NCBI GenBank assembly: GCA_964036295.1
Contig: OZ038470.1
Coordinates: forward strand, 9,329,078 to 9,393,077
Direction: 5' to 3'
Length of the DNA: 64,000 nucleotides
Origin: Plumapathes pennacea
Taxonomy: Eukaryota > Cnidaria > Anthozoa > Antipatharia > Myriopathidae
Below the pieces are notes generated by a model that was not told the DNA's origin, made no database searches, and saw only the letters and a program-made list of their open reading frames with translations. The number at the start of each line of letters is the position of its first letter. Position 1 is the stretch's first letter. Shown here piece after piece: positions 1 through 64,000 of this stretch. Position numbers and translations under genes: made by a program.

Positions 1-585
1 ATGGTTGCGTATTCCAATTCTATGTGTGTTAACTCATATCCATGGCCTTTGGTATTGTCTGAAGTTACAACTATATCAGACGCATTAGCAAGTTTTATCT
101 CAAATCTTAGGTTTGACTTCAGCCCACTTTGATAATAAACCCCATGATCGTCTAACAGCGGGTGAGATAGTGGAATACGATACCTGTGAGCGTAGGATAA
201 ATTCGTGAGTTTCATAATCTTAGAATCGCCAGTTTCTGCCGCTCTAATCTTTCTTTTGTCTTCTTGTCATGATTCCTCTTTTCATATCTTCCTCACACGT
301 CAACATATCATGATACCCATGAAAAATGTCATATTTGTCTGTGTCACAAATAGTTTTTCCTCCAAAGAAAATTTTCATGTGGTTCACTAAGTTTCTTGAT
401 ACGTTTTGAACGAGGTGGTTGCTTGCAACACCCTTTTCTATCTTGACGTTAAACCTCAAAAACATACTCTTTGGAACGAAAACCATGTTTCATACAACCT
501 CGGGTACATTAACATAAAGTGTTTTTCCAGGCTTAGCAGACGATGGTGTGAAAGTTGTCCTATGAACTGTCCTCTCTGCCTTCAT
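1..585 (-). pseudogene. Major capsid-like protein (MCP), copy a, N-terminal part
   Basis: This is the 5' part of the capsid-like gene, with its 3' part lost at the window edge. The frame opens at ATG 583-585 and is stopped by TGA at 490-492. It reopens at 486 to 244, then must shift frame to enter the segment starting at ATG 213-215. The frame is open upstream to 708, but that stretch is antisense to the integrase start and is probably not coding. Confidence 0.75.
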
Positions 586-672
586 TGCCTTCGACAATCT
601 TGGCCTTCTATTCGGATTAAGTATTTTCTGCAAACGACATATTATTTTAAAAACATCAAAACAAATCTTTAA

Positions 673-1690
673 ATGAAAAACATGGAAAAGATTTATTACT
701 CTTCTCAAAAGGATATTGGAAGGGTTTATCCGCAGTCAAGAAACTTTCTACAGAAGCTAAAGTTAGCCTAGAAGAAGCAAGAGATTGGCTATCAAAACAG
801 GCGCTTTGGCAAATTTATCTTCCTCCACCGAATTATGTTCCAAGACCACATTGGATTATTTCAGAACCAAACGAAATTCACCAAGCAGATCTCCTATTCC
901 TCCCCCACGATAAAGTCGGAAGAAAAACTTATATATATATGCTTTAGTCGTTATTGATATTGCTTCAAGATATGTCGACGTAGAAGCTTTGACAAGTAAA
1001 TCAAGTGATGAAGTGTCAAACGCTTTCAAGAAAATTTACTCAAGAAAGTAAAAATGGCCAAAAACTTGTTGATCCGGGAAGAGAGTTTGTTGGATCTGTA
1101 ACGGTTCTTATGAATGAAAAGAAGCTAGTTATCAAAGATCGGAAACTGCTAATCACAGAGCACAAGCATTCGTCGAGAGAGCGAACAAAACATGGGGACA
1201 AAAAATATTTAGTCAACAATATGCTGACGAAATGTTAACTGAAGGTAGATCAACAAAGTGGATAAATAGATTACCAAATATCGTGAAAACTATCGACAAC
1301 CACGTCACTCGACTGACTGGCAAAAAAGCCATCGACGCTTATCGTGAGAAAAATGTTGAACAAAAGACTAAGAATTATTCAAGACCTGTTGGGTTTAATG
1401 AAAAAAGGCTTGACTCAATCGAAAAAGTAAGATATCTTGTCTTGCCAGGAGAGGAAGAAGGAGGAAACGTAAGAAGGGCAACAGATCCCATATGGAGTAC
1501 AAACGTTTTTGAGTTGAAAAAATCCATAATATCTAAAAATCAACCAGTTTTGTATTATTTAGTCGATGGACCAAAAAGAGGATTCGCCAGAGAAGAATTA
1601 CTAATCATACCATATGGCACAGAATTACCTCCAAAAATTTTTCTTAAAACAATAACTTTTCTAAATATCTTTAATCCTATAATGCCTTAA
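673..1690 (+). pseudogene. Retroviral-type (rve) integrase, copy 1
   Basis: This is the Maverick/Polinton integrase, which would insert element ends into host DNA. In order it shows an N-terminal helical region (LSKQALWQIYLPPP), an RNase H-like core and a C-terminal segment typical of Polinton integrases (RRATDPIW, VLYYLVDGPKRGF). The DDE residues are visible: Asp at 888-890 (HQAD), Asp at 1071-1073 (VDPGREF) and Glu at 1175-1177 (FVERANKTL). The triad is split over different frames by indels: a missing T near 726, an 11-base TA run at 930-940, a 4-base loss near 1060 (compared with U3), and a further shift near 1135. Only the last segment, 1232-1690, is a long open frame. Its end overlaps the convergent polymerase by about 30 bases. 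Confidence 0.88.
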
Positions 1691-2426
1691 GGCTAAGGTG
1701 TCTATCCCATTTGGTAATATGTTTCTTTTATCGTCTTCCCTACTAAGTGCTATTTTGTTCACTTCTTCCGTGTATATGTCATGATCGCGACTTCTAATTA
1801 GATTCATCACCCTCATTTTCTTACCGCCGTTGATACGACAATCTTCATAATCCTGAAAATTTATATCCTTATTAACAAGAAGGTTATTGGAATGTTTAAG
1901 GATGAAGTCGGTGGAAGACACGTTTGAAGAATCGAGTACGTAAGAGTCAAGCTTAGCTGTCAAACTGACAAACTCTGAAATTTGTCTTCCACCGACTTCA
2001 TCCTTAAACATTCCAATAACCTTCTTGTTAACTCCAGTAGTAATTCCTGAAGAATGATCCTTTGGGTAATTACTAGTGTCAAACGATGTTAAGACATCTC
2101 CACTAACACCTTTATAAAAATCATCCGTCTCTATCTCATATATTAATGAATAAGTGTCAGTAAATAGTAACCTTGCCTTATCATTGTACTTCTCTTTGAT
2201 GTAACCATAATGAAAATCATACATCAACGTTTTACTTATGTCAAGTATTGACATTCCCAAGTAAACTGGTTTATCAAATAATAGCTTCGTCCTATGCATG
2301 TGAATAGCTGCTAAATCATTCACAAAATATTTTCCTTCTATCAAAGCTTGGTTTTGAGATAAGTTTCCTAGCTTGTGACTCGTTAGTGACCAACTTAATG
2401 TCTACCCTATTTCGGATATTTTCCAT
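1661..2426 (-). pseudogene. Protein-primed family-B DNA polymerase, C-terminal fragment, copy 1
   Basis: Only the last ~250 residues (distal palm and thumb) remain; the exonuclease domain and the rest of the palm are missing. The KPVYLGMSILDISKTLMYDFHYGYIK stretch and the following motif C identify it as the polymerase family of Mavericks and adintoviruses. Motif C, normally DTDS, reads DTYS at 2147-2158, so a metal-binding Asp is lost in every unit. Homology begins at ATG 2426, overlapping the end of the 163-aa ORF in another frame. A 1-base indel near 2325 separates this from the 1661-2344 open frame. The 49-bp palindrome replaces a conserved tail segment. Confidence 0.88.
1872..2031. repeat. 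49-bp perfect inverted repeat inside the polymerase fragment
   Basis: Arms at 1872-1920 and 1983-2031 are exact reverse complements separated by 62 bases. Both arms lie in the polymerase reading frame, so the protein carries a sense copy (NKKVIGMFKDEVGGRQ) followed by the translation of its reverse complement (STDFILKHSNNLLVNK). Equivalent palindromes occur in every unit except U9, U11 and U13, for example 6023-6182, 14319-14478 and 26719-26878. Some copies carry one mismatch (U5, U6, U8, U10). Confidence 0.95.
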
Positions 2427-2893
2427 GGTTTTTCCTCAGACACTTTTGATGCATACCTGCAAATTCTTCTTCCTAATTGTTTATTATTCAACAAATCTTT
2501 CTTCAAAGACTCTTCATCGTCCAAAGTAAGGATATACGAAAGTCCTTTAAAAATTCCATCAACAACTATTCCCATTCCATCTTTCATTAACTCTTGTCCG
2601 GACTTTTCTTCATAAACTTTGAATAAACATTCTAAATCAGAATCCTTCATCTTTCTAATATCAACTGCACTTATGTTTTCTCCTACATATTCTTCCAAAC
2701 CAAGCGTCATGGCAACTGATGCAAGAATATCTCTTTTTCTCGATATTTCACTTTGTACCTCTGGATCTATTTCAGCTTCCTTTTGTGATTCTTTCTTCTT
2801 ACTTTGTGTTAGTTTTCTTTTTGCTTTAGGTTTTTGTTCTTTTTTTGTTTCGTTCTTTTCAAGATTAACGTAATCGTTTACAGTTTCTGCCAT
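2402..2893 (-). CDS. Unrecognised 163-aa protein, truncated Maverick ORF, copy 1
   Basis: ATG start at 2893 and an intact frame. Residues 10-40 are Lys/Glu/Gln-rich and probably disordered (KPKAKRKLTQSKKK could act as a basic nuclear signal). Residues 45-155 look helical, with an acidic MKDSDLECLFKVYEEKSGQELMKDG segment. A similarly placed ORF of unknown function lies beside the ATPase in Mavericks; I infer this is its N-terminal part. The 3' end runs straight into polymerase sequence (KPWKISEIG reads through the polymerase MENIRNR codons in another frame), so the original C-terminus was lost at a deletion junction. It starts 21 bases after the ATPase stop. This is the only gene open in most units. 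Confidence 0.7.
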   Translation of the reverse strand: MAETVNDYVNLEKNETKKEQKPKAKRKLTQSKKKESQKEAEIDPEVQSEISRKRDILASVAMTLGLEEYVGENISAVDIRKMKDSDLECLFKVYEEKSGQELMKDGMGIVVDGIFKGLSYILTLDDEESLKKDLLNNKQLGRRICRYASKVSEEKPWKISEIG

Positions 2894-2913
2894 TTATTTG
2901 TCAAAACAAAATT

Positions 2914-3573
2914 TTAAGTTGTTTGTGGAATTTCAATATAATATGAAAATGGATGGCGAAGAGAAAAACAAATCCTTGAGTGTTTTTCATTTTTTATTAT
3001 TTCACAAATAGTTTTCTTTTCATTATTATCAATTCCAGAACCAAACTTTTTAAAAAGTAAATCTGTTCCATCAAATTCTGGATTATGAAATGCAATAATG
3101 CAACCAAGATTTTCTCTGAATGGTTTTGCAATGCTAGTCAATTGTTGAGTTAGAACCCAAACAGAAACTCCAATATGTCGTTCACTGAAGCGAGATTGAT
3201 GAGTTTGCTGCTTCGTTTCTTCACATCTGCACTCACTGCACAATCATCAAGAATTATGAGAACTTTGGTTTGTCTTTGTAAATCATCCATTTTGGTGTCG
3301 TGAAATAGATCTGCACAAATCTCCAAACACTCTTCAACATCTTCAGATTCACTCGCATTTGGCATCGCGACGAAAAAGCATTTGTCAAGATTAGCGAACC
3401 CTTCATAAGTTTTGTTAGTGGCGAACGTTGGACAAATCAAACAATAAAGTCGAAAACATACTTGGTCGATCTCTCAAAAGATCAACCAAGTATTGTGTTT
3501 TCCCACAATTTGTTGGGCCAGTAATCAAGGAAAATCGTATATTTTTAAATCTTATGAAGATGGCTGAATCCTT
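2914..3573 (-). pseudogene. FtsK/HerA-type packaging ATPase, copy 1
   Basis: This is a genome-packaging ATPase of the adenovirus/Polinton lineage. Walker A (GPTNCGKT) lies at 3496-3519. Walker B (LIILDD) lies at 3243-3260 in a different frame, 3150-3440. The downstream VWVLTQQL and IAFHNPEFDGTD segments return to the Walker A frame, in 2914-3243. Two indels therefore break it: one after Walker A near 3440 (in all units) and a missing A near 3190. No ATG is available upstream of Walker A; the frame runs back into the end of MCP, suggesting an originally overlapping start. Confidence 0.88.
3460..3491. repeat. Short stem-loop (12-bp arms, 8-base loop) in the ATPase
   Basis: Arms at 3460-3471 and 3480-3491 pair with one mismatch in this copy (and in U2). 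In most later units, such as 20004-20015 with 20024-20035, the pairing is perfect. The hairpin lies just after the Walker A codons and just before the universal frameshift. It may be incidental to the codons there; no known site is recognised. Confidence 0.7.
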
Positions 3574-4732
3574 ACATCTTTCACAACTCCATCACTAACG
3601 AAGATTGCTGCATCTGAAACAGCAAACACGTGACAATCGACGGTCGTAGAAGCAATTCCAGCCACGTCTACAACTAATCTCACACCATCCTGAGATCTTC
3701 CAACCACAATTCCGTCTCCATGAAGATTGTTAACTGGTGTGGATCTCAAATCAATCCACAATGCGAACTTGCCATTATGAAAGTCAATTTCCTTAAAGTG
3801 ATCCTCGACATAATCAAACCTTTTCAAAATCATTGGCCAAACATCCTCTCGTAAAATTCCGTCTGAAAATAACTTGTGTGGAACACCATTTATAGAAACC
3901 TTTACCGAATTAACAAGAAGATTAATAAACTCCTCAGCTTTTCTTTCTCCTGAATCGAAACTCTTTAAAAAGAATAACATGATTCCCTTTCATACAACTT
4001 CTTGGTGTGTTTACGTGCAAATTAGAAACAGCCCCCGTACCAATATCCTAAGAGGCTAACGTTTCAAAATGATGCACATCCTCAAAGTAAAAAGTTCTCC
4101 CACTTTCATAAATGCTACTCGCTTGAATTGCTAAATTTTCATCTTCAATGGTTGCGTATTCCAATTCTATGTGTGTTAACTCATATCCATGGCCTTTGGT
4201 ATTGTCTGAAGTTACAACTATATCAGACGCATTAGCAAGTTTTATCTCAAATCTTAGGTTTGACTTCAGCCCACTTTGATAATAAACCCCATGATCGTCT
4301 AACAGCGGGTGAGATAGTGGAATACGATACCTCTGAGCGTAGGATAAATTCGTGAGTTTCATAATCTTAGAATCGCCAGTTTCTGCCGCTCTAATCTTTC
4401 TTTTGTCTTCTTGTCATGATTCCTCTTTTCATATCTTCCTCACACGTCAACATATCATGATACCCATGAAAAATGTCATATTTGTCTGTGTCACAAATAG
4501 TTTTTCCTCCAAAGAAAATCTTCATGTGGTTCACTAAGTTTCTTGATACGTTTTGAACGAGGTGGTTGCTTGCAACACCCTTTTCTATCTTGACGTTAAA
4601 CCTCATAAACATACTCTTTGGAACGAAAACCATGTTTCATACAACCTCGGGTACATTAACATAAAGTGTTTTTCCAGGCTTAGCAGACGATGGTGTGAAA
4701 GTTGTCCTATGAACTGTCCTCTCTGCCTTCAT
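3552..4732 (-). pseudogene. Major capsid-like protein (double jelly roll), copy b
   Basis: This is the first full-length copy, about 390 codons from ATG 4732. N-terminal residues (SKAMKAERTVHRTTF, then KTLYVNVPEVV) and the following MVFVPKSMFLRFNV resemble the first strands of Polinton/adintovirus major capsid proteins. The distal part holds VKVSINGVPHKLFSDGILRED and a C-terminal DGVRLVVDVAG...SDAAVFVSDG region like the second jelly roll. The MCP assignment is by pattern recall and is less certain than that of the enzymes. Lesions shared by all units: TGA at 4637-4639 and a frameshift between 4391 and 4362. Lesions of this copy: a stop at 4048-4050 (Lys codon in other copies) and an extra C near 3985. 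The ATPase follows immediately. Confidence 0.75.
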
Positions 4733-4819
4733 TGCCTTCGACAATCTTGGCCTTCTATTCGGATTAAGTATTTTCTGGAAACGACATATTATTTTAAAAA
4801 CATCAAAACAAATCTTTAA

Positions 4820-5841
4820 ATGAAAAACATGGAAAAGATTTATTACTCTTCTCAAAAGGATATTGGAAGGGTTTATCCGCAGTCAAGAAACTTTCTACAG
4901 AAGCTAAAGTTAGCCTAGAAGAAGCAAGAGATTGGCTATCAAAACAGGCGCTTTCGCAAATTTATCTTCCTCCACCGAATTATGTTCCAAGACCACATTG
5001 GATTATTTCAGAACCAAACGAAATTCACCAAGCAGATCTCCTATTCCTCCCCCACGATAAAGTCGGAAGAAAAACTTATATATATATATATGCTTTAGTC
5101 GTTATTGATATTGCTTCAAGATATGTCGATGTAGAAGCTTTGACAAGTAAATCAAGTGATGAAGTGTCAAACGCTTTCAAGAAAATTTACTCAAGAAAGT
5201 AAAAATGGCCAAAAACTTGTTGATCCGGGAAGAGAGTTTGTTGGATCTGTAACGGTTCTTATGAATGAAAAGAAGCTAGTTATCAAAGATCGGAAACTGC
5301 TAATCACAGAGCACAAGCATTCGTCGAGAGAGCGAACAAAACATTGGGAGAAAAAATATTTAGTCAACAATATGCTGACGAAATGTTAACTGAAGGTAGA
5401 TCAACAAAGTGGATAAATAGATTACCAAATATCGTGAAAACTATCAACAACCACGTCACTCGACTGACTGGCAAAAAAGCCATCGACGCTTATCGTGAGA
5501 AAAATGTTGAACAAAAGACTAAGAATTATTCAAGACCTGTTGGGTTTAATGAAAAAAGGCTTGACTCAATCGAAAAAGTAAGATATCTTGTCTTGCCAGG
5601 AGAGGAAGAAGGAGGAAACGTAAGAAGGGCAACAGATCCCATATGGAGTACAAACGTTTTTGAGTTGAAAAAATCCATAATATCTAAAAATCAACCAGTT
5701 TTGTATTATTTAGTCGATGGACCAAAAAGAGGATTCGCCAGAGAAGAATTACTAATCATACCATATGGCACAGAATTACCTCCAAAAATTTTTCTTAAAA
5801 CAATAACTTTTCTAAATATCTTTAATCCTATAATGCCTTAA
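4820..5841 (+). pseudogene. rve integrase, copy 2
   Basis: The TA run is 15 bases, so the core reads through to ALVVIDIASRY. The C-terminal open frame (5344-5841, 165 codons) carries TINNHV where U1 has TIDNHV. The second Asp region still has the 4-base loss. Confidence 0.87.
5077..5091. repeat. TA microsatellite in the integrase core
   Basis: A run of alternating T and A interrupts the integrase between the first catalytic Asp and the conserved ALVVIDIASRY strand. Its length varies by unit: 11 bases in U1; 13 in U9, U11, U13; 15 in U2, U3, U5-U7, U12, U14-U16; 17 in U4, U8, U10. Only the 15-base form keeps the frame across this point. Confidence 0.9.
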
Positions 5842-6577
5842 GGCTAAGGTGTCTATCCCATTTGGTAATATGTTTCTTTTATCGTCTTCCCTACTAAGTG
5901 CTATTTTGTTCACTTCTTCCGTGTATATGTCATGATCGCGACTTCTAATTAGATTCATCACCCTCATTTTCTTACCGCCGTTGATACGACAATCTTCATA
6001 ATCCTGAAAATTTATATCCTTATTAACAAGAAGGTTATTGGAATGTTTAAGGATGAAGTCGGTGGAAGACACGTTTGAAGAATCGAGTACGTAAGAGTCA
6101 AGCTTAGCTGTCAAACTGACAAACTCTGAAATTTGTCTTCCACCGACTTCATCCTTAAACATTCCAATAACCTTCTTGTTAACTCCAGTAGTAATTCCTG
6201 AAGGATGATCCTTTGGGTAATTACTAGTGTCAAACGATGTTAAGACATCTCCACTAACACCTTTATAAAAATCATCCGTCTCTATCTCATATATTAATGA
6301 ATAAGTGTCAGTAAATAGTAACCTTGCCTTATCATTGTACTTCTCTTTGATGTAACCATAATGAAAATCATACATCAACGTTTTACTTATGTCAAGTATT
6401 GACATTCCCAAGTAAACTGGTTTATCAAATAATAGCTTCGTCCTATGCATGTGAATAGCTGCTAAATCATTCACAAAATATTTTCCTTCTATCAAAGCTT
6501 GGTTTTGAGATAAGTTTCCTAGCTTGTGACTCGTTAGTGACCAACTTAATGTCTACCCTATTTAGGATATTTTCCAT
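5812..6577 (-). pseudogene. Family-B polymerase C-terminal fragment, copy 2
   Basis: The open frame 5812-6495 holds the mutated motif C (DTYS) and the palindrome (6023-6182). A base change near 6563 alters the polymerase residue after MENI and also creates an earlier stop for the overlapping 163-aa ORF. Confidence 0.87.
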
Positions 6578-7044
6578 GGTTTTTCCTCAGACACTTTTGA
6601 TGCATACCTGCAAATTCTTCTTCCTAATTGTTTATTATTCAACAAATCTTTCTTCAAAGACTCTTCATCGTCCAACGTAAGGATATACGAAAGTCCTTTA
6701 AAAATTCCATCAACAACTATTCCCATTCCATCTTTCATTAACTCTTGTCCGGACTTTTCTTCATAAACTTTGAATAAACATTCTAAATCAGAATCCTTCA
6801 TCTTTCTAATATCAACTGCACTTATGTTTTCTCCTACATATTCTTCCAAACCAAGCGTCATGGCAACTGATGCAAGAATATCTCTTTTTCTCGATATTTC
6901 ACTTTGTACCTCTGGATCTATTTCAGCTTCCTTTTGTGATTCTTTCTTCTTACTTTGTGTTAGTTTTCTTTTTGCTTTAGGTTTTTGTTCTGTTTTTGTT
7001 TCGTTCTTTTCAAGATTAACGTCATCGTTTACAGTTTCTGCCAT
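6562..7044 (-). CDS. Unrecognised truncated Maverick ORF, copy 2 (160 aa)
   Basis: Same ORF as copy 1, ending three residues earlier (KPWKIS) because of a new stop at 6562. It carries NDD in place of NDY near residue 7. Confidence 0.68.
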   Translation of the reverse strand: MAETVNDDVNLEKNETKTEQKPKAKRKLTQSKKKESQKEAEIDPEVQSEISRKRDILASVAMTLGLEEYVGENISAVDIRKMKDSDLECLFKVYEEKSGQELMKDGMGIVVDGIFKGLSYILTLDDEESLKKDLLNNKQLGRRICRYASKVSEEKPWKIS

Positions 7045-7064
7045 TTATTTGTCAAAAGAAAATT

Positions 7065-7724
7065 TTAAGTTGTTTGTGGAATTTCAATATAATATGAAAA
7101 TGGATGGCGAAGAGAAAAACAAATCCTTGCGTGTTTTTCATTTTTTATTATTTCACAAATAGTTTTCTTTTCATTATTATCAATTCCAGAACCAAACTTT
7201 TTAAAAAGTAAATCTGTTCCATCAAATTCTGGATTATGAAATGCAATAATGCAACCAAGATTTTCTCTGAATGGTTTCGCAATGCTAGTCAATTGTTGAG
7301 TTAGAACCCAAACAGAAACTCCAATATGTCGTCCACTGAAGCGAGATTGATGAGTTTGCTGCTTCGTTTCTTCACATCTGCACTCACTGCACAATCATCA
7401 AGAATTATGAGAACTTTGGTTTGTCTTTGTAAATCATCCATTTTGGTGTCGTGAAATAGATCTGCACAAATCTCCAAACACTCTTCAACATCTTCAGATT
7501 CACTCGCATTTGGCATCGCGACGAAAAAGCATTTGTCAAGATTAGCGAACCCTTCATAAGTTTTGTTAGTGGCGAACGTTGGACAAATCAAACAATAAAG
7601 TCGAAAACATACTTGGTCGATCTCTCAAAAGATCAACCAAGTATTGTGTTTTCCCACAATTTGTTGGGCCAGTAATCAAGCAAAATCGTATATTTTTAAA
7701 TCTTATGAAGATGGCTGAATCCTT
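7065..7724 (-). pseudogene. Packaging ATPase, copy 2
   Basis: Walker A near the 3' end of the interval, Walker B in frame 7301-7591, and the C-terminal part in frame 7065-7394. It has the same two frame breaks as copy 1. Confidence 0.86.
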
Positions 7725-8884
7725 ACATCTTTCACAACTCCATCACTAACGAAGACTGCTGCATCTGAAACAACAAACACGTGACAATCGACGGTCGTAG
7801 AAGCAATTCCAGCCACGTCTACAACTAATCTCACACCATCCTGAGATCTTCCAACCACAATTCCGTCTCCATGAAGATTGTTAACTGGTGTGGATCTCAA
7901 ATCAATCCACAATGCGAACTTGCCATTATGAAAGTCAATTTCCTTAAAGTGATCCTCGACATAATCAAACCTTTTCAAAATCATTGGCCAAACATCCTCT
8001 CGTAAAATTCCGTCTGAAAATAACTTGTGTGGAACACCATTTATAGAAACCTTTACCGAATTAACAAGAGGATTAATAAACTCCTCAGCTTTTCTTTCTC
8101 CTGAATCGAAACTCTTTAAAAAGAATAACATGATTCCCTTTCATACAACTTCTTGGTGTGTTTACGTGCAAATTAAAAACAGCCCCCGTACCAATATCCT
8201 TCGAGGCTAACGTTTCAAAATGATGCACATCCTCAAAGTAAAAACGTTCTCCCACTTTGATAAACGCTACTCGCTTGAATTGCTAAATTTTCATCTTCAA
8301 TGGTTGCGTATTCCAATTCTATGTGTGTTAACTCATATCCATGGCCTTTGGTATTGTCTGAAGTTACAACTATATCAGACGCATTAGCAAGTTTTATCTC
8401 AAATCTTAGGTTTGACTTCAGCCCACTTTGATAATAAACCCCATGATCGTCTAACAGCGGGTGAGATAGTGGAATACAATACCTCTAAGCGTAGGATAAA
8501 TTCGTGAGTTTCATAATCTTAGAATCGCCAGTTTCTGCCGCTCTAATCTTTCTTTTGTCTTCTTGTCATGATTCCTTTTTTCATATCTTCCTCACACGTC
8601 AACATATCATGATACCCATGAAAAATGTCATATTTGTCTGTGTCACAAATAGTTTTTCCTCCAAAGAAAATTTTAATGTGGTTCACTAAGTTTCTTGATA
8701 CGTTTTGAACGAGGTGGTTGCTTGCAACACCCTTTTCTATCTTGACGTTAAACCTCAAAAACATACTCTTTGGAACGAAAACCATGTTTCATACAACCTC
8801 GGGTACATTAACATAAAGTGTTTTTCCAGGCTTAGCAGACGATGGTGTGAAAGTCGTCCTATGAACTGTCCTCTCTGCCTTCAT
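7703..8884 (-). pseudogene. Major capsid-like protein, copy c
   Basis: The distal frame is open only over 7703-8131. The middle segment has no usable frame: a Gln codon has become TAG at 8485-8487, and there is an inserted base near 8245. The shared TGA lies at 8789-8791. Confidence 0.73.
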
Positions 8885-8971
8885 TGCCTTCGACAATCTT
8901 GGCCTTCTATTCGCATTAAGTATTTTCTGCAAACGACATATTATTTTAAAAACATCAAAACAAATCTTTAA

Positions 8972-9961
8972 ATGAAAAACATGGAAAAGATTTATTACTC
9001 TTCTCAAAAGGATATTGGAAGGGTTTATCCGCAGTCAAGAAACTTTCTACAGAAGCTAAAGTTAGCCTAGAAGAAGCAAGAGATTGGCTATCAAAACAGG
9101 CGCTTTGGCAAATTTATCTTCCTCCACCGAATTATGTTCCAAGACCACATTGGATTATTTCAGAACCAAACGAAATTCACCAAGCAGATCTCCTATTCCG
9201 CCCCCACGATAAAGTCGGAAGAAAAACTTATATATATATATATGCTTTAGTCGTTATTGATATTGCTTCAAGATATATCGATGTAGAAGCTTTGACAAGT
9301 AAATCAAGTGATGAAGTGTCAAACGCTTTCAAGAAAATTTACTCAAGAAAGTAAAAATGGCAAAAACTTTGATTGTTGATCCGGGAAGAGAGTTTGTTGG
9401 ATCTGTAACGGTTCTTATGAATGAAAAGAAGCTAGTTATCAAAGATCGGAAACTGCTAATCACAGAGCACAAGCATTCGTCGAGAGAACGAACAAAACAT
9501 TAGGAGAAAAAATATTTAGTCAACAATATGCTGACGAAATGTTAACTGAAGGTGGATCAACAAAGTGGATAAATAGATTACCAAATATCGTGAAAACTAT
9601 CGACAACCACGTCACTCGACTGACTGGCAAAAAAGCCATCGACGCTTATCGTGAGAAAAATGTTGAACAAAAGACTAAGAATTATTCAAGACCTGTTGGG
9701 TTTAATGAAAAAAGGCTTGACTCAATCGAAAAAGTAAGATATCTTGTCTTGCCAGGAGAGGAAGAAGGAGGAAACGTAAGAAGGGCAACAGATCCCATAT
9801 GGAGTACAAACGTTTTTGAGTTGAAAAAATCCATAATATCTAAAAATCAACCAGTTTTGTATTATTTAGTCGATGGACCAAAAAGAGGATTCGCCAGAGA
9901 AGAATTACTAATCATACCATATGGCACAGAATTACCTCCAAAATTTTTCTTAAAACAATAA
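8972..9961 (+). pseudogene. rve integrase, copy 3 (second Asp region preserved)
   Basis: Unlike most copies this one keeps the 4-base segment before the second Asp, reading AKTLIVDPGREF in one frame. The TA run is 15 bases (9229-9243). The C-terminus is shorter (PPKFFLKQ, ending 9961) because one A is missing. U15 carries a very similar version. Confidence 0.87.
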
Positions 9962-9966
9962 CTTTT

Positions 9967-10732: not shown

Positions 10733-11199
10733 GGTTTTTCCTCAGACACTTTTGATGCATACCTGCAAATTCTTCTTCCTAATTGTTTATTATTCAACAA
10801 ATCTTTCTTCAAAGACTCTTCATCGTCCAAAGTAAGGATATACGAAAGTCCTTTAAAAATTCCATCAACAACTATTCCCATTCCATCTTTCATTAACTCT
10901 TGTCCGGACTTTTCTTCATAAACTTTGAATAAACATTCTAAATCAGAATCCTTCATCTTTCTAATATCAACTGCACTTATGTTTTCTCCTACATATTCTT
11001 CCAAACCAAGCGTCATGGCAACTGACGCAAGAATATCTCTTTTTCTCGATATTTCACTTTGTACCTCTGGATCTATTTCAGCTTCCTTTTGTATTTTTTT
11101 CTTCTTACTTTGTGTTAGTTTTCTTTTTGCTTTAGGTTTTTGTTCTGTTTTTGTTTCGTTCTTTTCAAGATTAACGTAATCGTTTACAGTTTCTGCCAT
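10708..11199 (-). CDS. Unrecognised truncated Maverick ORF, copy 3
   Basis: Intact 163 codons. SKKKKIQKE replaces SKKKESQKE through substitutions near 11090. Confidence 0.68.
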   Translation of the reverse strand: MAETVNDYVNLEKNETKTEQKPKAKRKLTQSKKKKIQKEAEIDPEVQSEISRKRDILASVAMTLGLEEYVGENISAVDIRKMKDSDLECLFKVYEEKSGQELMKDGMGIVVDGIFKGLSYILTLDDEESLKKDLLNNKQLGRRICRYASKVSEEKPWKISEIG

Positions 11200-11219
11200 T
11201 TATTTGTCAAAACAAAATT

Positions 11220-53067: not shown

Positions 53068-54226
53068 ACATCTTTCACAACTCCATCACTAACGAAGATT
53101 GCTGCACCTGAAACAACAAACACGTGACAATCGACGGTCGTAGAAGCAATTCCAGCCACGTCTACAACTAATCTCACACCATCCTGAGATCTTCCAACCA
53201 CAATTCCGTCTCCATGAAGATTGTTAACTGGTGTGGATCTCAAATCAATCCACAATGCGAACTTGCCATTATGAAAGTCAATTTCCTTAAAGTGATCCTC
53301 GACATAATCAAACCTTTTCAAAATCATTGGCCAAACATCCTCTCGTAAAATTTCGTCTGAAAATAACTTGTGTGGAACACCATTTATAGAAACCTTTACC
53401 GAATTAACAAGAGGATTAATATACTGCTCAGCTTTTCTTTCTCCTGAATGGAAACTCTTTATAAAGAATAACAAGATTCCTTTCATACAACTTCTTGGTG
53501 TGTTTACGTGCAAATTAAAAACAGCCCCCGTACCAATATCCTTCGAGGCTAACGTTTCAAAATGATGCACATCCTCAAAGTAAAAAAGTTCTCCCACTTT
53601 GATAAACGCTACTCGCTTGAATTGCTAAATTTTCATCTTCAATGGTTGCGTATTCCAATTCTATGTGTGTTAACTCATATCCATGGCCTTTGGTATTGTC
53701 TGAAGTTACAACTATATCAGACGCATTAGCAAGTTTTATCTCAAATCTTAGGTTTGACTTCAGCCCACTTTGATAATAAACCCCATGATCGTCTAACAGC
53801 GGGTGAGATAGTGGAATACGATACCTCTGAGCGTAGGATAAATTAGTGAGTTTCATAATCTTAGAATCGCCAGTTTCTGCCGCTCTAATCTTTCTTTTGT
53901 CTTCTTGTCATGATTCCTCTTTTCATATCTTCCTCACACGTCAACATATCATGATACCCATGAAAAATGTCATATTTGTCTGTGTCACAAATAGTTTTTC
54001 CTCCAAAGAAAATCTTCATGTGGTTCACTAAGTTTCTTGATACGTTTTGAACGAGGTGGTTGCTTGCAACACCCTTTTCTATCTTGACGTTAAACCTCAA
54101 AAACATACTCTTTGGAACGAAAACCATGTTTCATACAACATGGGGTACATTAACATAAAGTGTTTTTCCAGGCTAAGCAGACGATGGTGTGAAAGTTGTC
54201 CTATGAACTGTCCTCTCTGCCTTCAT
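53046..54226 (-). pseudogene. Major capsid-like protein, copy n
   Basis: Distal frame 53046-53597 and middle frame 53575-53856; extra TAG near 54173 as in copies j and l. Confidence 0.74.
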
Positions 54227-54313
54227 TACCTTCGACAATCTTGGCCTTCTATTCGGATTAAGTATTTTCTGCAAACGACATATTATTTTAAAAACATCAA
54301 AACAAATCTTTAA

Positions 54314-55335
54314 ATGAAAAACATGGAAAAGATTTATTACTCTTCTCAAAAGGATATTGGAAGGGTTTATCCGCAGTCAAGAAACTTTCTACAGAAGCTA
54401 AAGTTAGCCTAGAAGAAGCAAGAGATTGGCTATCAAAACAGGCGCTTTGGCAAATTTATCTTCCTCCACCGAATTATGTTCCAAGACCACATTGGATTAT
54501 TTCAGAACCAAACGAAATTCACCAAGCAGATCTCCTATTCCTCCCCCACGATAAAGTCGGAAGAAAAACTTATATATATATATATGCTTTAGTCGTTATT
54601 GATATTGCTTCAAGATATGTCGATGTAGAAGCTTTGACAAGTAAATCAAGTGATGAAGTGTCAAACGCTTTCAAGAAAATTTACTCAAGAAAGTAAAAAT
54701 GGCCAAAAACTTGTTGATCCGGGAAGAGAGTTTGTTGGATCTGTAACGGTTCTTATGAATGAAAAGAAGCTAGTTATCAAAGATCGAAAACTGCTAATCA
54801 CAGAGCACAAGCATTCGTCGAGAGAGCGAACAAAACATTGGGACAAAAAATATTTAGTCAAAAATATGCTGACGAAATGTTAACTGAAGGTAGATCAACA
54901 AAGTGGATAAATAGATTACCAAATATCGTGAAAACTATCAACAACCACGTCACTCGACTGACTGGCAAAAAAGCCATCGACGCTTATCGTGAGAAAAATG
55001 TTGAACAAAAGACTAAGAATTATTCAAGACCTGTTGGGTTTAATGAAAAAAGGCTTGACTCAATCGAAAAAGTAAGATATCTTGTCTTGCCAGGAGAGGA
55101 AGAAGGAGGAAACGTAAGAAGGGCAACAGATCCCATATGGAGTACAAACGTTTTTGAGTTGAAAAAATCTATAATATCTAAAAATCAACCAGTTTTGTAT
55201 TATTTAGTCGATGGACCAAAAAGAGGATTCGCCAGAGAAGAATTACTAATCATACCATATGGCACAGAATTACCTCCAAAAATTTTTCTTAAAACAATAA
55301 CTTTTCTAAATATCTTTAATCCTATAATGCCTTAA
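54314..55335 (+). pseudogene. rve integrase, copy 14
   Basis: GQKIFSQKYADE version of U12, repeated 8211 bases on. TA run 15 bases. Confidence 0.86.
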
Positions 55336-56071
55336 GGCTAAGGTGTCTATCCCATTTGGTAATATGTTTCTTTTATCGTCTTCCCTACTAAGTGCTATTT
55401 TGTTCACTTCTTCCGTGTATATGTCATGATCGCGACTTCTAATTAGATTCATCACCCTCATTTTCTTACCGCCGTTGATACGACAATCTTCATAATCCTG
55501 AAAATTTATATCCTTATTAACAAGAAGGTTATTGGAATGTTTAAGGATGAAGTCGGTGGAAGACACGTTTGAAGAATCGAGTACGTAAGAGTCAAGCTTA
55601 GCTCTCAAACTGACAAACTCTGAAATTTGTCTTCCACCGACTTCATCCTTAAACATTCCAATAACCTTCTTGTTAACTCCAGTAGTAATTCCTGAAGGAT
55701 GATCCTTTGGGTAATTACTAGTGTCAAACGATGTTAAGACATCTCCACTAACACCTTTATAAAAATCATCCGTCTCTATCTCATATATTAATGAATAAGT
55801 GTCAGTAAATAGTAACCTTGCCTTATCATTGTACTTCTCTTTGATGTAACCATAATGAAAATCATACATCAACGTTTTACTTATGTCAAGTATTGACATT
55901 CCCAAGTAAACTGGTTTATCAAATAATAGCTTCGTCCTATGCATGTGAATAGCTGCTAAATCATTCACAAAATATTTTCCTTCTATCAAAGCTTGGTATT
56001 GAGATAAGTTTCCTAGCTTGTGACTCGTTAGTGACCAACTTAATGTCTACCCTATTTCGGATATTTTCCAT
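55306..56071 (-). pseudogene. Family-B polymerase C-terminal fragment, copy 14
   Basis: Open over 55306-55989, same product as copy 12. A private base change (GGTATTG for GGTTTTG) lies near 55998. Confidence 0.86.
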
Positions 56072-56538
56072 GGTTTTTCCTCAGACACTTTTGATGCATA
56101 CCTGCAAATTCTTCTTCCTAATTGTTTATTATTCAACAAATCTTTCTTCAAAGACTCTTCATCGTCCAAAGTAAGGATATCCGAAAGTCCTTTAAAAATT
56201 CCATCAACAACTATTCCCATTCCATCTTTCATTAACTCTTGTCCGGACTTTTCTTCATAAACTTTGAATAAACATTCTAAATCAGAATCCTTCATCTTTC
56301 TAATATCAACTGCACTTATGTTTTCTCCTACATATTCTTCCAAACCAAGCGTCATGGCAACTGACGCAAGAATATCTCTTTTTCTCGATATTTCACTTTG
56401 TACCTCTGGATCTATTTCAGCTTCCTTTTGTGATTCTTTCTTCTTACTTTGTGTTAGTTTTCTTTTTGCTTTAGGTTTTTGTTCTTTTTTTGTTTCGTTC
56501 TTTTCAAGATTAACGTAATCGTTTACAGTTTCTGCCAT
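56047..56538 (-). CDS. Unrecognised truncated Maverick ORF, copy 14
   Basis: Intact 163 codons without the A-type 2-base deletion, and with ETKKEQ as in U1. U14 is therefore a mosaic that leaves the A type at or before this gene. Private GLSDIL for GLSYIL. Confidence 0.68.
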   Translation of the reverse strand: MAETVNDYVNLEKNETKKEQKPKAKRKLTQSKKKESQKEAEIDPEVQSEISRKRDILASVAMTLGLEEYVGENISAVDIRKMKDSDLECLFKVYEEKSGQELMKDGMGIVVDGIFKGLSDILTLDDEESLKKDLLNNKQLGRRICRYASKVSEEKPWKISEIG

Positions 56539-56558
56539 TTATTTGTCATAACAAAATT

Positions 56559-57218
56559 TTAAGTTGTTTGTGGAATTTCAATATGATATGAAAATGGATG
56601 GCGAAGAGAAAAACAAATCCTTGAGTGTTTTTCATTTTTTAGTATTTCACAAATAGTTTTCTTTTCATTATTATCAATTCCAGAACCAAACTTTTTAAAA
56701 AGTAAATCTGTTCCATCAAATTCTGGATTATAAAATGCAATAATGCAACCAAGATTTTCTCTGAATGGTTTCGCAATGCTAGTCAATTGTTGAGTTAGAA
56801 CCCAAACAGAAATTCCAATATGTCGTCCACTGAAGCGAGATCGATGAGTTTGCTGCTTCGTTTCTTCACATCTGCACTCACTGCACAATCATCAAGAATT
56901 ATGAGAACTTTGGTTTGTCTTTGTAAATCATCCATTTTGATGTCGTGAAATAGATCTGCACAAATCTCCAAACACTCTTCAACATCTTCAGATTCACTCG
57001 CATTTGGCATCGTGACGAAAAAGCATTTGTCAAGATTAGCGAACCCTTCATAAGTTTTGTTAGTGGCGAACGTTGGACAAATCAAACAAAAAAGTCGAAA
57101 ACATACTTGGTCGATCTCTCAAAAGATCGACCAAGTATTGTGTTTTCCCACAATTTGTTGGGCCAGTAATCAAGCAAAATCGTATATTTTTAAATCTTAT
57201 GAAGATGGCTGAATCCTT
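56559..57218 (-). pseudogene. Packaging ATPase, copy 14
   Basis: Frames 56795-57085 (HDIKMDD form) and 56559-56888 (ILKNEKHS form), combining A-type and other variants. Confidence 0.85.
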
Positions 57219-58365
57219 ACATCTTTCACAACTCCATCACTAACGAAGACTGCTGCATCTGAAACAACAAACACGTGACAATCGACGGTCGTAGAAGCAA
57301 TTCCAGCCACGTCTACAACTAATCTCACACCATCCTGAGATCTTCCAACCACAATTCCGTCTCCATGAAGATTGTTATCTGGTGTGGATCTCAAATCAAT
57401 CCACAATGCGAACTTGCCATTATGAAAGTCAATTTCCTTAAAGTGATCCTCGACATAATCAAACCTTTTCAAAATCATTGGCCAAACATTCCGTCTGAAA
57501 ATAACTTGTGTGGAACACCATTTATAGAAACCTTTACCGAATTAACAAGAGGATTAATATACTGCTCAGCTTTTCTTTCTCCTGAATCGAAACTCTTTAA
57601 AAAGAATAACATGATTCCCTTTCATACAACTTCTTGGTGTGTGTACGTGCAAATTAAAAACAGCCCCCGTACCAATATCCTTCGAGACTAACGTTTCAAA
57701 ATGATGCACATCCTCAAAGTAAAAAAGTTCTCCCACTTTGATAAACGCTACTCGCTTGAATTGCTAAATTTTCATCTTCAATGGTTGCGTATTCCAATTC
57801 TATGTGTGTTAACTCATATCCATGGCCTTTGGTATTGTCTGAAGTTACAACTATATCAGACGCATTAGCAAGTTTTATCTCAAATCTTAGGTTTGACTTC
57901 AGCCCACTTTGATAATAAACCCCATGATCGTCTAACAGCGGGTGAGATAGTGGAATACGATACCTCTGAGCGTAGGATAAATTCGTGAGTTTCATAATCT
58001 TAGAATCGCCAGTTTCTGCCGCTCTAATCTTTCTTTTGTCTTCTTGTCATGATTCCTCTTTTCATATCTTCCTCACACGTCAACATATCATGATACCCAT
58101 GAAAAATGTCATATTTGTCTGTGTCACAAATAGTTTTTCCTCCAAAGAAATTTTTGATGTGATTCACTAAGTTTCTTGATACGTTTTGAACGAGGTGGTT
58201 GCTTGCAACACCCTTTTCTATCTTGACGTTAAACCTCAAAAACATACTCTTTGGAACGAAAACCATGTTTCATACAACCTCGGGTACATTAACATAAAGT
58301 GTTTTTCCAGGCTTAGCAGACGATGGTGTGAAAGTCGTCCTATGAACTGTCCTCTCTGCCTTCAT
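57197..58365 (-). pseudogene. Major capsid-like protein, copy o
   Basis: 13-base deletion, extra C and extra A. Middle frame 57714-57995. Private changes near 58150 (IKNFFGG). Shared TGA at 58270-58272. Confidence 0.74.
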
Positions 58366-58452
58366 TGCCTTCGACAATCTTGGCCTTCTATTCGGATTAA
58401 GTATTTTCTGCAAACGACATATTATTTTAAAAACATCAAAACAAATCTTTAA

Positions 58453-59478
58453 ATGAAAAACATGGAAAAGATTTATTACTCTTCTCAAAAGGATATTGGA
58501 AGGGTTTATCCGCAGTCAAGAAACTTTCTACAGAAGCTAAAGTTAGCCTAGAAGAAGCAAGAGATTGGCTATCAAAACAGGCGCTTTGGCAAATTTATCT
58601 TCCTCCACCGAATTATGTTCCAAGACCACATTGGATTATTTCAGAACCAAACGAAATTCACCAAGCAGATCTCCTATTCCGCCCCCACGATAAAGTCGGA
58701 AGAAAAACTTATATATATATATATGCTTTAGTCGTTATTGATATTGCTTCAAGATATATCGATGTAGAAGCTTTGACAAGTAAATCAAGTGATGAAGTGT
58801 CAAACGCTTTCAAGAAAATTTACTCAAGAAAGTAAAAATGGCAAAAACTTTGATTGTTGATCCGGGAAGAGAGTTTGTTGGATCTGTAACGGTTCTTATG
58901 AATGAAAAAAAGCTAGTTATCAAAGATCGGAAACTGCTAATCACAGAGCACAAGCATTCGTCGAGAGAGCGAACAAAACATTAGGAGAAAAAATATTTAG
59001 TCAACAATATGCTGACGAAATGTTAACTGAAGGTAGATCAACAAAGTGGATAAATAGATTACCAAATATCGTGAAAACTATCGACAACCACGTCACTCGA
59101 CTGACTGGCAAAAAAGCCATCGACCCTTATCGTGAGAAAAATGTTGAACAAAAGACTAAGAATTATTCAAGACCTGTTGGGTTTAATGAAAAAAGGCTTG
59201 ACTCAATCGAAAAAGTAAGATATCTTGTCTTGCCAGGAGAGGAAGAAGGAGGAAACCTAAGAAGGGCAACAGATCCCATATGGAGTACAAACGTTTTTGA
59301 GTTGAAAAAATCCATAATATCTAAAAATCAACCAGTTTTGTATTATTTAGTCGATGGACCAAAAAGAGGATTCGCCAGAGAAGAATTACTAATCATACCA
59401 TATGGCACAGAATTACCTCCAAAAATTTTTCTTAAAACAATAACTTTTCTAAATATCTTTAATCCTATAATGCCTTAA
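58453..59478 (+). pseudogene. rve integrase, copy 15 (U3-like)
   Basis: Keeps the 4-base segment (TLIVDPGREF), TA run 15 bases, TIDNHV type, and the Leu-to-Arg change LLFRPHD, all shared with U3. Private AIDPYRE for AIDAYRE. Confidence 0.86.
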
Positions 59479-60214
59479 GGCTAAGGTGTCTATCCCATTT
59501 GGTAATATGTTTCTTTTATCGTCTTCCCTACTAAGTGCTATTTTGTTCACTTCTTCCGTGTATATGTCATGATCGCGACTTCTAATTAGATTCATCACCC
59601 TCATTTTCTTACCGCCGTTGATACGACAATCTTCATAATCCTGAAAATTTATACCCTTATTAACAAGAAGGTTATTGGAATGTTTAAGGATGAAGTCGGT
59701 GGAAGACACGTTTGAAGAATCGAGTACGTAAGAGTCAAGCTTAGCTCTCAAACTGACAAACTATGAAACTTGTCTTCCACCGACTTCATCCTTAAACATT
59801 CCAATAACCTTCTTGTTAACTCCAGTAGTAATTCCTGAAGGATGATCCTTTGGGTAATTACTAGTGTCAAACGATGTTAAGACATCCCCACTAACACCTT
59901 TATAAAAATCATCCGTCTCTATCTCATATATTAATGAATAAGTGTCAGTAAATAGTAACCTTGCCTTATCATTGTACTTCTCTTTGATGTAACCATAATG
60001 AAAATCATACATCAACGTTTTACTTATGTCAAGTATTGACATTCCCAAGTAAACTGGTTTATCAAATAATAGCTTCGTCCTATGCATGTGAATAGCTGCT
60101 AAATCATTCACAAAATATTTTCCTTCTATCAAAGCTTGGTTTTGAGATAAGTTTCCTAGCTTGTGACTCGTTAGTGACCAACTTAATGTCTACCCTATTT
60201 CGGATATTTTCCAT
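59449..60214 (-). pseudogene. Family-B polymerase C-terminal fragment, copy 15 (nonsense as in U3)
   Basis: Split at the same stop as U3 (after GGRQVS) into 59449-59751 and 59761-60132. Confidence 0.86.
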
Positions 60215-60681
60215 GGTTTTTCCTCAGACACTTTTGATGCATACCTGCAAATTCTTCTTCCTAATTGTTTATTATTCAACAAATCTTTCTTCAAAGACTC
60301 TTCATCGTCCAAAGTAAGGATATACGAAAGTCCTTTAAAAATTCCATCAACAACTATTCCCATTCCATCTTTCATTAACTCTTGTCCGGACTTTTCTTCA
60401 TAAACTTTGAATAAACATTCTAAATCAGAATCCTTCATCTTTCTAATATCAACTGCACTTATGTTTTCTCCTACATATTCTTTCAAACCAAGCGTCATGG
60501 CAACTGACGCAAGAATATCTCTTTTTCTCGATATTTCACTTTGTACCTCTGGATCTATTTCAGCTTCCTTTTGTGATTCTTTCTTCTTACTTTGTGTTAG
60601 TTTTCTTTTTGCTTTAGGTTTTTGTTCTTCTTTTGTTTCGTTCTCTTCAAAATAAACGTAATCGTTTACAGTTTCTGCCAT
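60190..60681 (-). CDS. Unrecognised truncated Maverick ORF, copy 15
   Basis: Intact 163 codons with private YVYFEENE near the N-terminus and GLKEYVGE as in U6. Confidence 0.68.
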   Translation of the reverse strand: MAETVNDYVYFEENETKEEQKPKAKRKLTQSKKKESQKEAEIDPEVQSEISRKRDILASVAMTLGLKEYVGENISAVDIRKMKDSDLECLFKVYEEKSGQELMKDGMGIVVDGIFKGLSYILTLDDEESLKKDLLNNKQLGRRICRYASKVSEEKPWKISEIG

Positions 60682-60701
60682 TTATTTGTCATAACAAAAT
60701 T

Positions 60702-61361
60702 TTAAGTTGTTTGTGGAATTTCAATATGATATGAAAATGGATGGCGAAGAGAAAAACAAATCCTTGAGTGTTTTTCATTTTTTAGTATTTCACAAATAGT
60801 TTTCTTTTCATTATTATCAATTCCAGAACCAAACTTTTTAAAAAGTAAATCTGTTCCATCAAATTCTGGATTATAAAATGCAATAATGCAACCAAGATTT
60901 TCTCTGAATGGTTTCGCAATGCTAGTCAATTGTTGAGTTAGAACCCAAACAGAAATTCCAATATGTCGTCCACTGAAGCGAGATCGATGAGTTTGCTGCT
61001 TCGTTTCTTCACATCTGCACTCACTGCACAATCATCAAGAATTATGAGAACTTTGGTTGGTCTTTGTAAATCATCCATTTTGGTGTCGTGAAATAGATCT
61101 GCACAAATCTCCAAACACTCTTCAACATCTTCAGATTCACTCGCATTTGGCATCGTGACGAAAAAGCATTTGTCAAGATTAGCGAACCCTTCATAAGTTT
61201 TGTTAGTGGCGAACGTTGGACAAATCAAACAAAAATGTCGAAAACATACTTGGTCGATCTCTCAAAAGATCGACCAAGTATTGTGTTTTCCCACAATTTG
61301 TTGGGCCAGTAATCAAGCAAAATCGTATATTTTTAAATCTTATGAAGATGGCTGAATCCTT
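60702..61361 (-). pseudogene. Packaging ATPase, copy 15
   Basis: Frames 60938-61228 (private LQRPTKV) and 60702-61031. Confidence 0.85.
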
Positions 61362-62508
61362 ACATCTTTCACAACTCCATCACTAACGAAGACTGCTGCA
61401 TCTGAAACAACAAACACGTGACAATCGACGGTCGTAGAAGATATTCCTGCCACGTCTACAACTAATCTCACACCATCCTGAGATCTTCCAACCACAATTC
61501 CGTCTCCATGAAAATTGTTATCTGGTGTGGATCTCAAATCAATCCACAATGCGAACTTGCCATTATGAAAGTCAATTTCCTTAAAGTGATCCTCGACATA
61601 ATCAAACCTTTTCAAAATCATTGGCCAAACATTCCGTCTGAAAATAACTTGTGTGGAACACCATTTATAGAAACCTTTACCGAATTAACAAGAGGATTAA
61701 TAAACTCCTCAGCTTTTCTTTCTCCTGAATCGAAACTCTTTAAAAAGAATAACATGATTCCCTTTCATACAACTTCTTGGTGTGTTTACGTGCAAATTAA
61801 AAACAGCCCCCGTACCAATATCCTTCGAGGCTAACGTTTCAAAATGATGCACATCCTCAAAGTAAAAAAGTTCTCCCACTTTGATAAACGCTACTCGCTT
61901 GAATTGCTAAATTTTCATCTTCAATGGTTGCGTATTCCAATTCTATGTGTGTTAACTCATATCCATGGCCTTTGGTATTGTCTGAAGTTACAACTATATC
62001 AGACGCATTAGCAAGTTTTATCTCAAATCTTAGGTTTGACTTCAGCCCACTTTGATAATAAACCCCATGATCGTCTAACAGCGGGTGAGATAGTGGAATA
62101 CAATACCTCTGAGCGTAGGATAAATTCGTGAGTTTCATAATCTTAGAATCGCCAGTTTCTGCCGCTCTAATCTTTCTTTTGTCTTCTTGTCATGATTCCT
62201 CTTTTCATATCTTCCTCACACGTCAACATATCATGATACCCATGAAAAATGTCATATTTGTCTGTGTCACAAATAGTTTTTCCTCCAAAGAAAATTTTCA
62301 TGTGGTTCACTAAGTTTCTTGATACGTTTTGAACGAGGTGGTTGCTTGCAACACCCTTTTCTATCTTGACGTTAAACCTCAAAAACATACTCTTTGGAAC
62401 GAAAACCATGTTTCATACAACCTCGGGTACATTAACATAAAGTGTTTTTCCAGGCTTAGCAGACGATGGTGTGAAAGTTGTCCTATGAACTGTCCTCTCT
62501 GCCTTCAT
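61340..62508 (-). pseudogene. Major capsid-like protein, copy p
   Basis: 13-base deletion, extra C and extra A. Private GISSTTV and NNFHGD. Shared TGA at 62413-62415. Confidence 0.74.
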
Positions 62509-62595
62509 TGCCTTCGACAATCTTGGCCTTCTATTCGGATTAAGTATTTTCTGCAAACGACATATTATTTTAAAAACATCAAAACAAATCTTTAA

Positions 62596-63617
62596 ATGAA
62601 AAACATGGAAAAGATTTATTACTCTTCTAGAAAGGATATTGGAAGGGTTTATCCGCAGTCAAGAAACTTTCTACAGAAGCTAAAGTTAGCCTAGAAGAAG
62701 CAAGAGATTGGCTATCAAAACAGGCGCTTTGGCAAATTTATCTTCCTCCACCGAATTATGTTCCAATACCACATTGGATTATTTCAGAACCAAACGAAAT
62801 TCACCAAGCAGATCTCCTATTCCTCCCCCACGATAAAGTCGGAAGAAAAACTTATATATATATATATGCTTTAGTCGTTATTGATATTGCTTCAAGATAT
62901 GTCGATGTAGAAGCTTTGACAAGTAAATCAAGTGATGAAGTGTCAAACGCTTTCAAGAAAATTTACTCAAGAAAGTAAAAATGGCCAAAAACTTGTTGAT
63001 CCGGGAAGAGAGTTTGTTGGATCTGTAACGGTTCTTATGAATGAAAAAAAGCTAGTTATCAAAGATCGAAAACTGCTAATCACAGAGCACAAGCATTCGT
63101 CGAGAGAGCGAACAAAACATTGGGAGAAAAAATATTTAGTCAACAATATGCTGACGAAATGTTAACTGAAGGTAGATCAACAAAGTGGATAAATAGATTA
63201 CCAAATATCGTGAAAACTATCAACAACCACGTCACTCGACTGACTGGCAAAAAAGCCATCGACGCTTATCGTGAGAAAATTGTTGAACAACAGACTAAGA
63301 ATTATTCAAGACCTGTTGGGTTTAATGAAAAAAGGCTTGACTCAATCGAAAAAGTAAGATATCTTGTCTTGCCAGGAGAGGAAGAAGGAGGAAACCTAAG
63401 AAGGGCAACAGATCCCATATGGAGTACAAACGTTTTTGAGTTGAAAAAATCCATAATATCTAAAAATCAACCAGTTTTGTATTATTTAGTCGATGGACCA
63501 AAAAGAGGATTCGCCAGAGAAGAGTTACTAATCATACCATATGGCACAGAATTACCTCCAAAAATTTTTCTTAAAACAATAACTTTTCTAAATATCTTTA
63601 ATCCTATAATGCCTTAA
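62596..63617 (+). pseudogene. rve integrase, copy 16
   Basis: TA run 15 bases. Private changes: SSRKDIGR near the start, and KIVEQQTK in the C-terminal frame 63120-63617. Confidence 0.86.
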
Positions 63618-64000
63618 GGCTAAGGTGTCTATCCCATTTGGTAATATGTTTCTTTTATCGTCTTCCCTACTAAGTGCTATTTTGTTCACTTCTTCCGTGT
63701 ATATGTCATGATCGCGACTTCTAATTAGATTCATCACCCTCATTTTCTTACCGCCGTTGATACGACAATCTTCATAATCCTGAAAATTTATATCCTTATT
63801 AACAAGAAGGTTATTGGAATGTTTAAGGATGAAGTCGGTGGAAGACACGTTTGAAGAATCGAGTACGTAAGAGTCAAGCTTAGCTCTCAAACTGACAAAC
63901 TCTGAAATTTGTCTTCCACCGACTTCATCCTTAAACATTCCAATAACCTTCTTGTTAACTCCAGTAGTAATTCCTGAAGGATGATCCTTTGGGTAATTAC
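63588..64000 (-). pseudogene. Family-B polymerase C-terminal fragment, copy 16 (cut by window end)
   Basis: The C-terminal part is open from the window edge downward and includes the palindrome. Motif C and the upstream part lie beyond the window. Confidence 0.83.

Follow-up and report, generated by a model that had tools for sequence, protein, structure and literature searches.

How can an inner piece of a virus-like transposon come to be repeated, head to tail, over hundreds of kilobases? The question is raised by a 64,000-nt stretch of the genome of the antipatharian Plumapathes pennacea (GenBank assembly GCA_964036295.1, contig OZ038470.1, here C9, positions 9,329,078-9,393,077), referred to below as the window. 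A preliminary description of its letters had taken it for a dead fragment of a Polinton (Maverick) amplified in tandem. Homology of the repeated genes to integrase, type B polymerase (pPolB) and Pox_A32-type ATPase bears out the Polinton origin, and the window was found to lie wholly within a 403-kb macrosatellite array of single orientation, inside a 290-Mb genome of 24 contigs. The array probably arose by a head-to-tail fusion of Polinton ends, a deletion across the fusion and amplification by host recombination, with what looks like a parallel case on contig C8.

The array on C9 and its unit

The array starts at C9:9,085,419, and its final copy can be aligned to the unit as far as 9,488,310. 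Copies were counted genome-wide with a 44-bp pattern from the spacer between two genes of the unit (window 4779..4822, up to 3 mismatches allowed), which gave 97 matches on C9 between 9,086,251 and 9,486,511, all on the plus strand, and 3 matches outside the array, the reversed-pattern control giving 0. The pattern misses the second copy from the left edge, which makes 97 a minimum count; here and below, copy number and blocks are given as assembled. Sixteen of the 97 matches fall in the window. The figure of at least 15.5 copies first proposed was right for the window, which is part of an array of at least 97. In the window, recurring 16-mers have spacing peaks at 4151, 4152, 4143 and 4139 bp, with most recurrences at 4.05-4.16 kb, and the median unit spacing is 4,140 bp.

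From a continuous 264 kb (C9:9,129,078-9,393,077) 63 complete units were excised. This stretch has no N letters, and its poorest 1-kb bin has 733 of 1000 20-mers in common with the window. Adjacent matched stretches are 0-1 bp apart except at 4 places, at which 186-188 bp replace unit positions 1-245. Together with the common strand of the C9 pattern matches, this confirms the head-to-tail arrangement. No inverted repeat was detected at the ends of the one unit searched, as expected of the internal piece without element ends that had been proposed, and none at the array edges when the left flank was compared with the right one (BLAST, E 1e-5); a 207-bp inverted dispersed repeat common to both flanks lies 12-14 kb outside the array. 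Lacking the terminal inverted repeats that define a Polinton, the locus is a Polinton-derived array and not a Polinton. It is a macrosatellite with higher-order repeats, since it consists of at least 97 similar head-to-tail units with a mean pairwise distance of 1.27% (63 units).

The features are as follows, in window coordinates unless a contig is given.

C9:9,085,419 to ~9,488,310, plus strand: macrosatellite array, of which window positions 1..64000 are a part
4152..8302, plus strand: reference unit, complete, 4,151 bp, the basis for comparisons
4779..4822, no strand: native spacer between the divergent capsid-like (minus) and integrase (plus) genes, the same as the 44-bp count pattern
4855..5784, plus strand: integrase (rve) remnant, interrupted, covering residues 12-322/323 of homologue P0005
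5812..6552, minus strand: pPolB C-terminal remnant, an open stretch of 246 aa, convergent with the integrase
6023..6182, no strand: hairpin, a 54-nt inverted duplication inside the pPolB remnant, arms 96% complementary and 52 nt apart
6566..6608, no strand: deletion joint with a 4-bp overlap, TTCC, where 2.09 kb of the left-edge copy are gone
6587..7044, minus strand: small-gene remnant without its C-terminal part, no Pfam match
7068..7685, minus strand: packaging ATPase remnant, interrupted, homologues with PF04665 (Pox_A32)
7706..8932, minus strand: capsid-like gene remnant, interrupted, in pieces over residues 3-410 of P0121 (410 aa); it straddles the unit boundary as used here

The unit accordingly holds parts of five viral genes, as had been claimed. 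For the integrase, 2152 homologues were found among 2248 candidates, and PF00665 scores 34.3 bits on the left-edge copy (cut-off 32.6) and a sub-cut-off 22.1 bits on the window copy. The ATPase has 252 homologues, most of those listed with PF04665, while its frame in the window has no Pfam match of its own; the small gene is a 188-aa frame in the left-edge copy. The pPolB C-terminal remnant of the standard unit, also without its own Pfam match, was assigned because it is continuous with a stretch at the right array edge (L029:1402-2061) that matches PF03175 (E 4.5e-09) and is absent from standard units, and because pPolB matches in dispersed elements have the same position with respect to the capsid gene. 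The capsid-like gene matches PF16903 at E 0.0018, below the cut-off. A structure model of its homologue P0126, a poor one used as support only (predicted local distance difference test, pLDDT, 56), had as its top solved structures the double-jelly-roll capsid proteins of EhV-201, PBCV-1 and PRD1 (P3), with E values of 1.8e-06 to 1.8e-05 but template-modelling (TM) scores of 0.23-0.30. Polintons also feature a cysteine protease and a minor (penton) capsid protein. The window has no transfer RNAs or Rfam families and weak PHROGs matches only (best E 0.0036), and its integrase stretch has no match in phage records.

In each of the 62 rotated units the integrase, capsid and ATPase genes are all interrupted, in agreement with the first description, although long open pieces persist. 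Variants fall on codon positions 1, 2 and 3 of the six frames 123, 98 and 89 times, with no third-position excess and therefore nothing that points to coding constraint among the units. As the three tested genes are interrupted in every unit tested, the array is probably without function, coding function included, and kept as satellite DNA.

Native gene order, fusion and deletion

Dispersed Polintons are abundant in the same genome: PF03175 is matched at least 53 times, with 91 of 252 candidates scored, and the open frames are as long as 1,468 aa. Their gene order was determined from 41 of 43 pPolB, 73 of 109 capsid, 57 of 152 ATPase and 31 of 45 small-gene rows, which came from the best 40 of 180, 102 of 508, 150 of 412 and 40 of 197 candidates, respectively. 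No rows were taken from the C9 array or the C8 cluster, nor were 27-bp matches, the pPolB part of the small-gene query, a few fragments or the lower-scoring ATPase rows used. Among these best matches the ATPase is followed by the capsid gene in 46 of 57 cases, the small gene by the ATPase in 19 of 31 and the capsid gene by pPolB in 25 of 73, the reverse order occurring 0 times for each pair; the remaining rows have no partner within range. The order at the array joint, pPolB then small gene, was found in 0 of 41, and small gene then pPolB 7 times. The native order is small-ATPase-capsid|integrase-pPolB, and the order within the unit is native. The piece is therefore not rearranged, as it had been called; the array departs from the native state in a single head-to-tail fusion and in a deletion that spans this fusion.

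The capsid|integrase spacer was considered as the tandem joint and rejected, as the capsid and integrase genes of a dispersed copy on C1 are arranged just as in the unit (87% identity over 1.2 kb) and 25 of the 73 capsid matches have pPolB on the native side. A piece near an element on C2 (L070) has no similarity to the unit or to the array edges. Elsewhere, Polinton gene matches form mirror-image pairs at C3:7,534,197-7,548,340 and C11:8,476,144-8,482,860, as if two elements or halves were inverted. On C12 they are paired ~630 kb apart, near 5.43/6.06 and 5.63/6.25 Mb, which suggests a large segmental duplication or the assembly of one stretch twice.

The fusion is seen in the left-edge copy, where pPolB is joined head-to-tail to the small-gene end at C9:9,089,579. 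A query from this copy splits at that point (its position 343) into a first part that is pPolB, continuing at C10:10,416,340, and a second part that is the small gene, from the opposite end of dispersed elements. The left-edge copy has ~2,087 bp (9,088,048-9,090,133) that are missing from the reference unit, and this deletion spans the fusion. The right-edge copy enters the same pPolB stretch, the left and right versions being 96.7% alike, so that copies without the deletion are kept at both edges of the array. Among the best 40 of 180 candidates, the undeleted pPolB stretch occurs at 2 places on C9, one at each edge, and the closest other full-length match is 89% alike. The deletion joint is present in 62 of 63 aligned units, and its pattern occurs at 93 places in the genome, every one in the array (control 0). 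Looking for the unit elsewhere in the genome, as had been recommended, thus gave the joint in the array only, and a related second cluster on C8.

Fusion, then deletion, then amplification is the simplest order of events. The view that inactivation came before amplification agrees with the near-universal deletion joint and not with the hairpin, which is found in 50 of 63 aligned units but is missing from the outermost copy at either edge; some damage hence arose during or after amplification. The hairpin is perhaps a template-switch scar. A deletion of its own, of ~1.07 kb (C9:9,094,040-9,094,057, from unit position 2196 to 3263), sets the copy next to the left-edge one apart from the others.

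On C8 (8,688,715-8,730,619) the best 40 of 116 candidates include at least 11 places with the small gene in one orientation. Ten of these share 95-99% identity with the remaining one. Neighbouring places are 0.6-5.7 kb apart, and 6 of the 10 intervals measure 3.8-4.1 kb. Here too the small-gene side is fused to the pPolB C-terminus, at a point that differs from that on C9. The C8 joint is crossed by 8 of 12 listed cluster places, 3 stop or start there and 1 covers one end only, while in all 28 of the other places listed the match is confined to one side of it (best 40 of 270 candidates). As the joint is different and identity to C9 is ~79%, the two cases would be independent. This suggests recurrence, a second Polinton subfamily having apparently undergone the same kind of fusion.

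Amplification and rival accounts of origin

Pairwise distances of the 63 units range from 0 to 2.1% and give 40 clusters at 0.3%. Their mean identity is 96.1% with the left-edge copy and 95.2% with the right-edge one, from 63 comparisons in each case. Thirteen units in succession recur 86,671 bp to the right with differences of 0-0.34%, 11 of them at 0.1% or less; other near-identical blocks occur at offsets of 2, 5, 18 and 23 units, among others, and on the right side equally scoring copies lie 20,604 or 20,594 bp apart. The longest run of matching unit lengths is 10, whereas none of 500 shuffles gave a run longer than 6. Near-identical multi-unit blocks are the pattern expected of unequal exchange and block duplication, and host recombination, already named in the preliminary description, is the likeliest route of the later amplification.

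The following course of events is proposed. A Polinton on C9 would have become a head-to-tail repeat in which pPolB was joined to the small-gene end, as at the joint of the left-edge copy, and the outer parts of the element would have been lost. The 2.09-kb deletion across this joint, with its 4-bp overlap, would then have given the 4.15-kb unit, presumably through end-joining or template switching. The deleted unit would have been copied to at least 97 in the nested blocks described, putatively by unequal exchange in host recombination, and a like fusion at another point would have occurred on C8.

Several points weigh against this account. The step of the first fusion is unseen, and tandem insertion, a circle or a concatemer would look alike. 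The near-universal joint may have spread among units by gene conversion, which also bears on whether inactivation came first. The capsid assignment is weak, the gene-order counts rest on best matches, and the C8 cluster is irregular in its intervals and known from 1,769 bases read. Within the C9 array, letters were read for the continuous 264 kb, both edges and small probes, and the remaining ~111 kb (within 9,099,078-9,129,077 and 9,393,078-9,487,077) are known from pattern matches, three loci and one probe only.

One alternative is that an extrachromosomal circle or concatemer was integrated as a ready-made multimer, host recombination acting only later. The fusion of the same two ends, head to tail, in two Polinton subfamilies and the closeness of the gene remnants within the unit would agree with it, but undeleted copies at both edges and near-identical blocks fit stepwise chromosomal duplication and the assembly carries no evidence of circles, so that such an origin appears rather unlikely. 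That haplotype copies were placed in tandem by the assembly, which would make the copy number or the large blocks artefacts in part, might be read from the 11 nearly identical pairs 86,671 bp apart and from the fact that the blocks are known from the assembly alone. It is made very improbable by the differences and clusters among the units, by both edges having been found with other flanking sequence and by the lack of N letters in 264 kb. Separate transposon insertions lying side by side by chance would at least suit a Polinton-rich genome, and are scarcely conceivable for units that abut in one orientation, without inverted repeats at the ends of the unit searched and with a deletion joint found nowhere outside the array.

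A putative role of the array, as (peri)centromeric DNA of C9 or as a source of small RNAs against the many Polintons of the genome, is doubtful. The position of the array, at 9.09-9.49 of 17.36 Mb (mid-contig, as position only), would suit the former, as would the confinement of capsid and pPolB matches, among the entered rows, to 12.1-19.5 of 42.4 Mb on C1 (16 of 16) and to 0.7-3.2 Mb on each of C5, C6, C10 and C11; in Tribolium, a Polinton-like cluster is given, in the available part of the source, as enriched 2.12-fold in CenH3 chromatin immunoprecipitation (PMC7598501). Against it, the entered matches on C2 and C3 are scattered over ~25-27 Mb, C1 has ATPase matches also at 10.8 and 40.6 Mb, coding constraint is not seen, and a Ribosomal_L10 open frame (C9:9,083,076-9,083,573) ends 1.85 kb left of the array, unlike what is expected deep in a centromere. 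The broader proposal, that Polintons regularly form circles or concatemers in replication and recurrently seed arrays, independently on C9 and C8, the former now being a (peri)centromeric satellite, is given a low probability. Fusion, deletion and amplification on the chromosome is the reading retained.

Surroundings and known systems

The Ribosomal_L10 frame, presumably that of a mitochondrial protein, is one of 2 matches in the genome, the other being on C10. An abundant dispersed repeat, at least 280 bp long, stops 5 bp short of the left edge of the array (best 40 of 1,962 candidates). The left flank further has retroelement-like frames with gag-asp_proteas and rve, both sub-cut-off, and the right flank a Helitron-like frame.

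The preliminary description knew of no Polinton-derived satellite. This held in part: no multi-gene Polinton macrosatellite was found by searches of the open-licence literature of PubMed Central, and the parts of the crayfish literature examined gave nothing on Polinton-derived satellites, but two shorter satellites with Polinton homology are in print, LmiSat34-299 of a locust (299 bp, PMC4935994) and CgiSat52 of an oyster (1,656 bp, PMC8268682). The C9 array resembles both as tandem repeats homologous to Polinton, whereas multi-gene content, a fusion joint and higher-order structure are not mentioned for them in the available parts of these papers. What seems new is thus the multi-gene unit, the legible birth and the second case. 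The steps of the birth of a satellite can be followed here in native-order relatives, a fusion-bearing edge copy, undeleted edge copies and nested duplications, so that the derivation of kilobase-scale satellites from virus-like elements becomes open to test. Polintons may repeatedly seed satellite DNA, and the C8 cluster allows a regular Polinton mechanism to be asked about.

A tandem-dimer ('double insertion') model of satellite birth was reportedly put forward by McGurk and Barbash in 2018. That tandem dimers act as seeds of satellites is, in the available text, an existing model (PMC12368964; cited also in PMC9659126), and it shares with C9 the head-to-tail copies as substrate for unequal exchange; unlike in that model, the C9 joint is without element ends and is itself deleted in the amplified unit. 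In Drosophila virilis, the foldback element Tetris has internal tandem repeats of ~220 bp, TIR-220 (PMC4079207), and as far as these are described there, a piece of transposon serves as tandem building block in both cases, with a multi-gene piece of 4.15 kb on C9 against ~220-bp repeats.

With the vertebrate Mavericks, in the available description (PMC8097293), the C9 array has the integrase, type B polymerase, Pox_A32-type ATPase and capsid-like protein in common. It is also like Polintons in that homologues of its genes are dispersed in the same genome, and unlike them in that element ends were not found, the tested genes are interrupted, the copies stand in tandem and there is no sign of transposition. 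Alpha satellite and DXZ4 are higher-order-repeat satellites or macrosatellites with nested near-identical blocks and kilobase units. The C9 array shares the nested blocks and the kilobase units with them and differs by its origin from a virus-like transposon.

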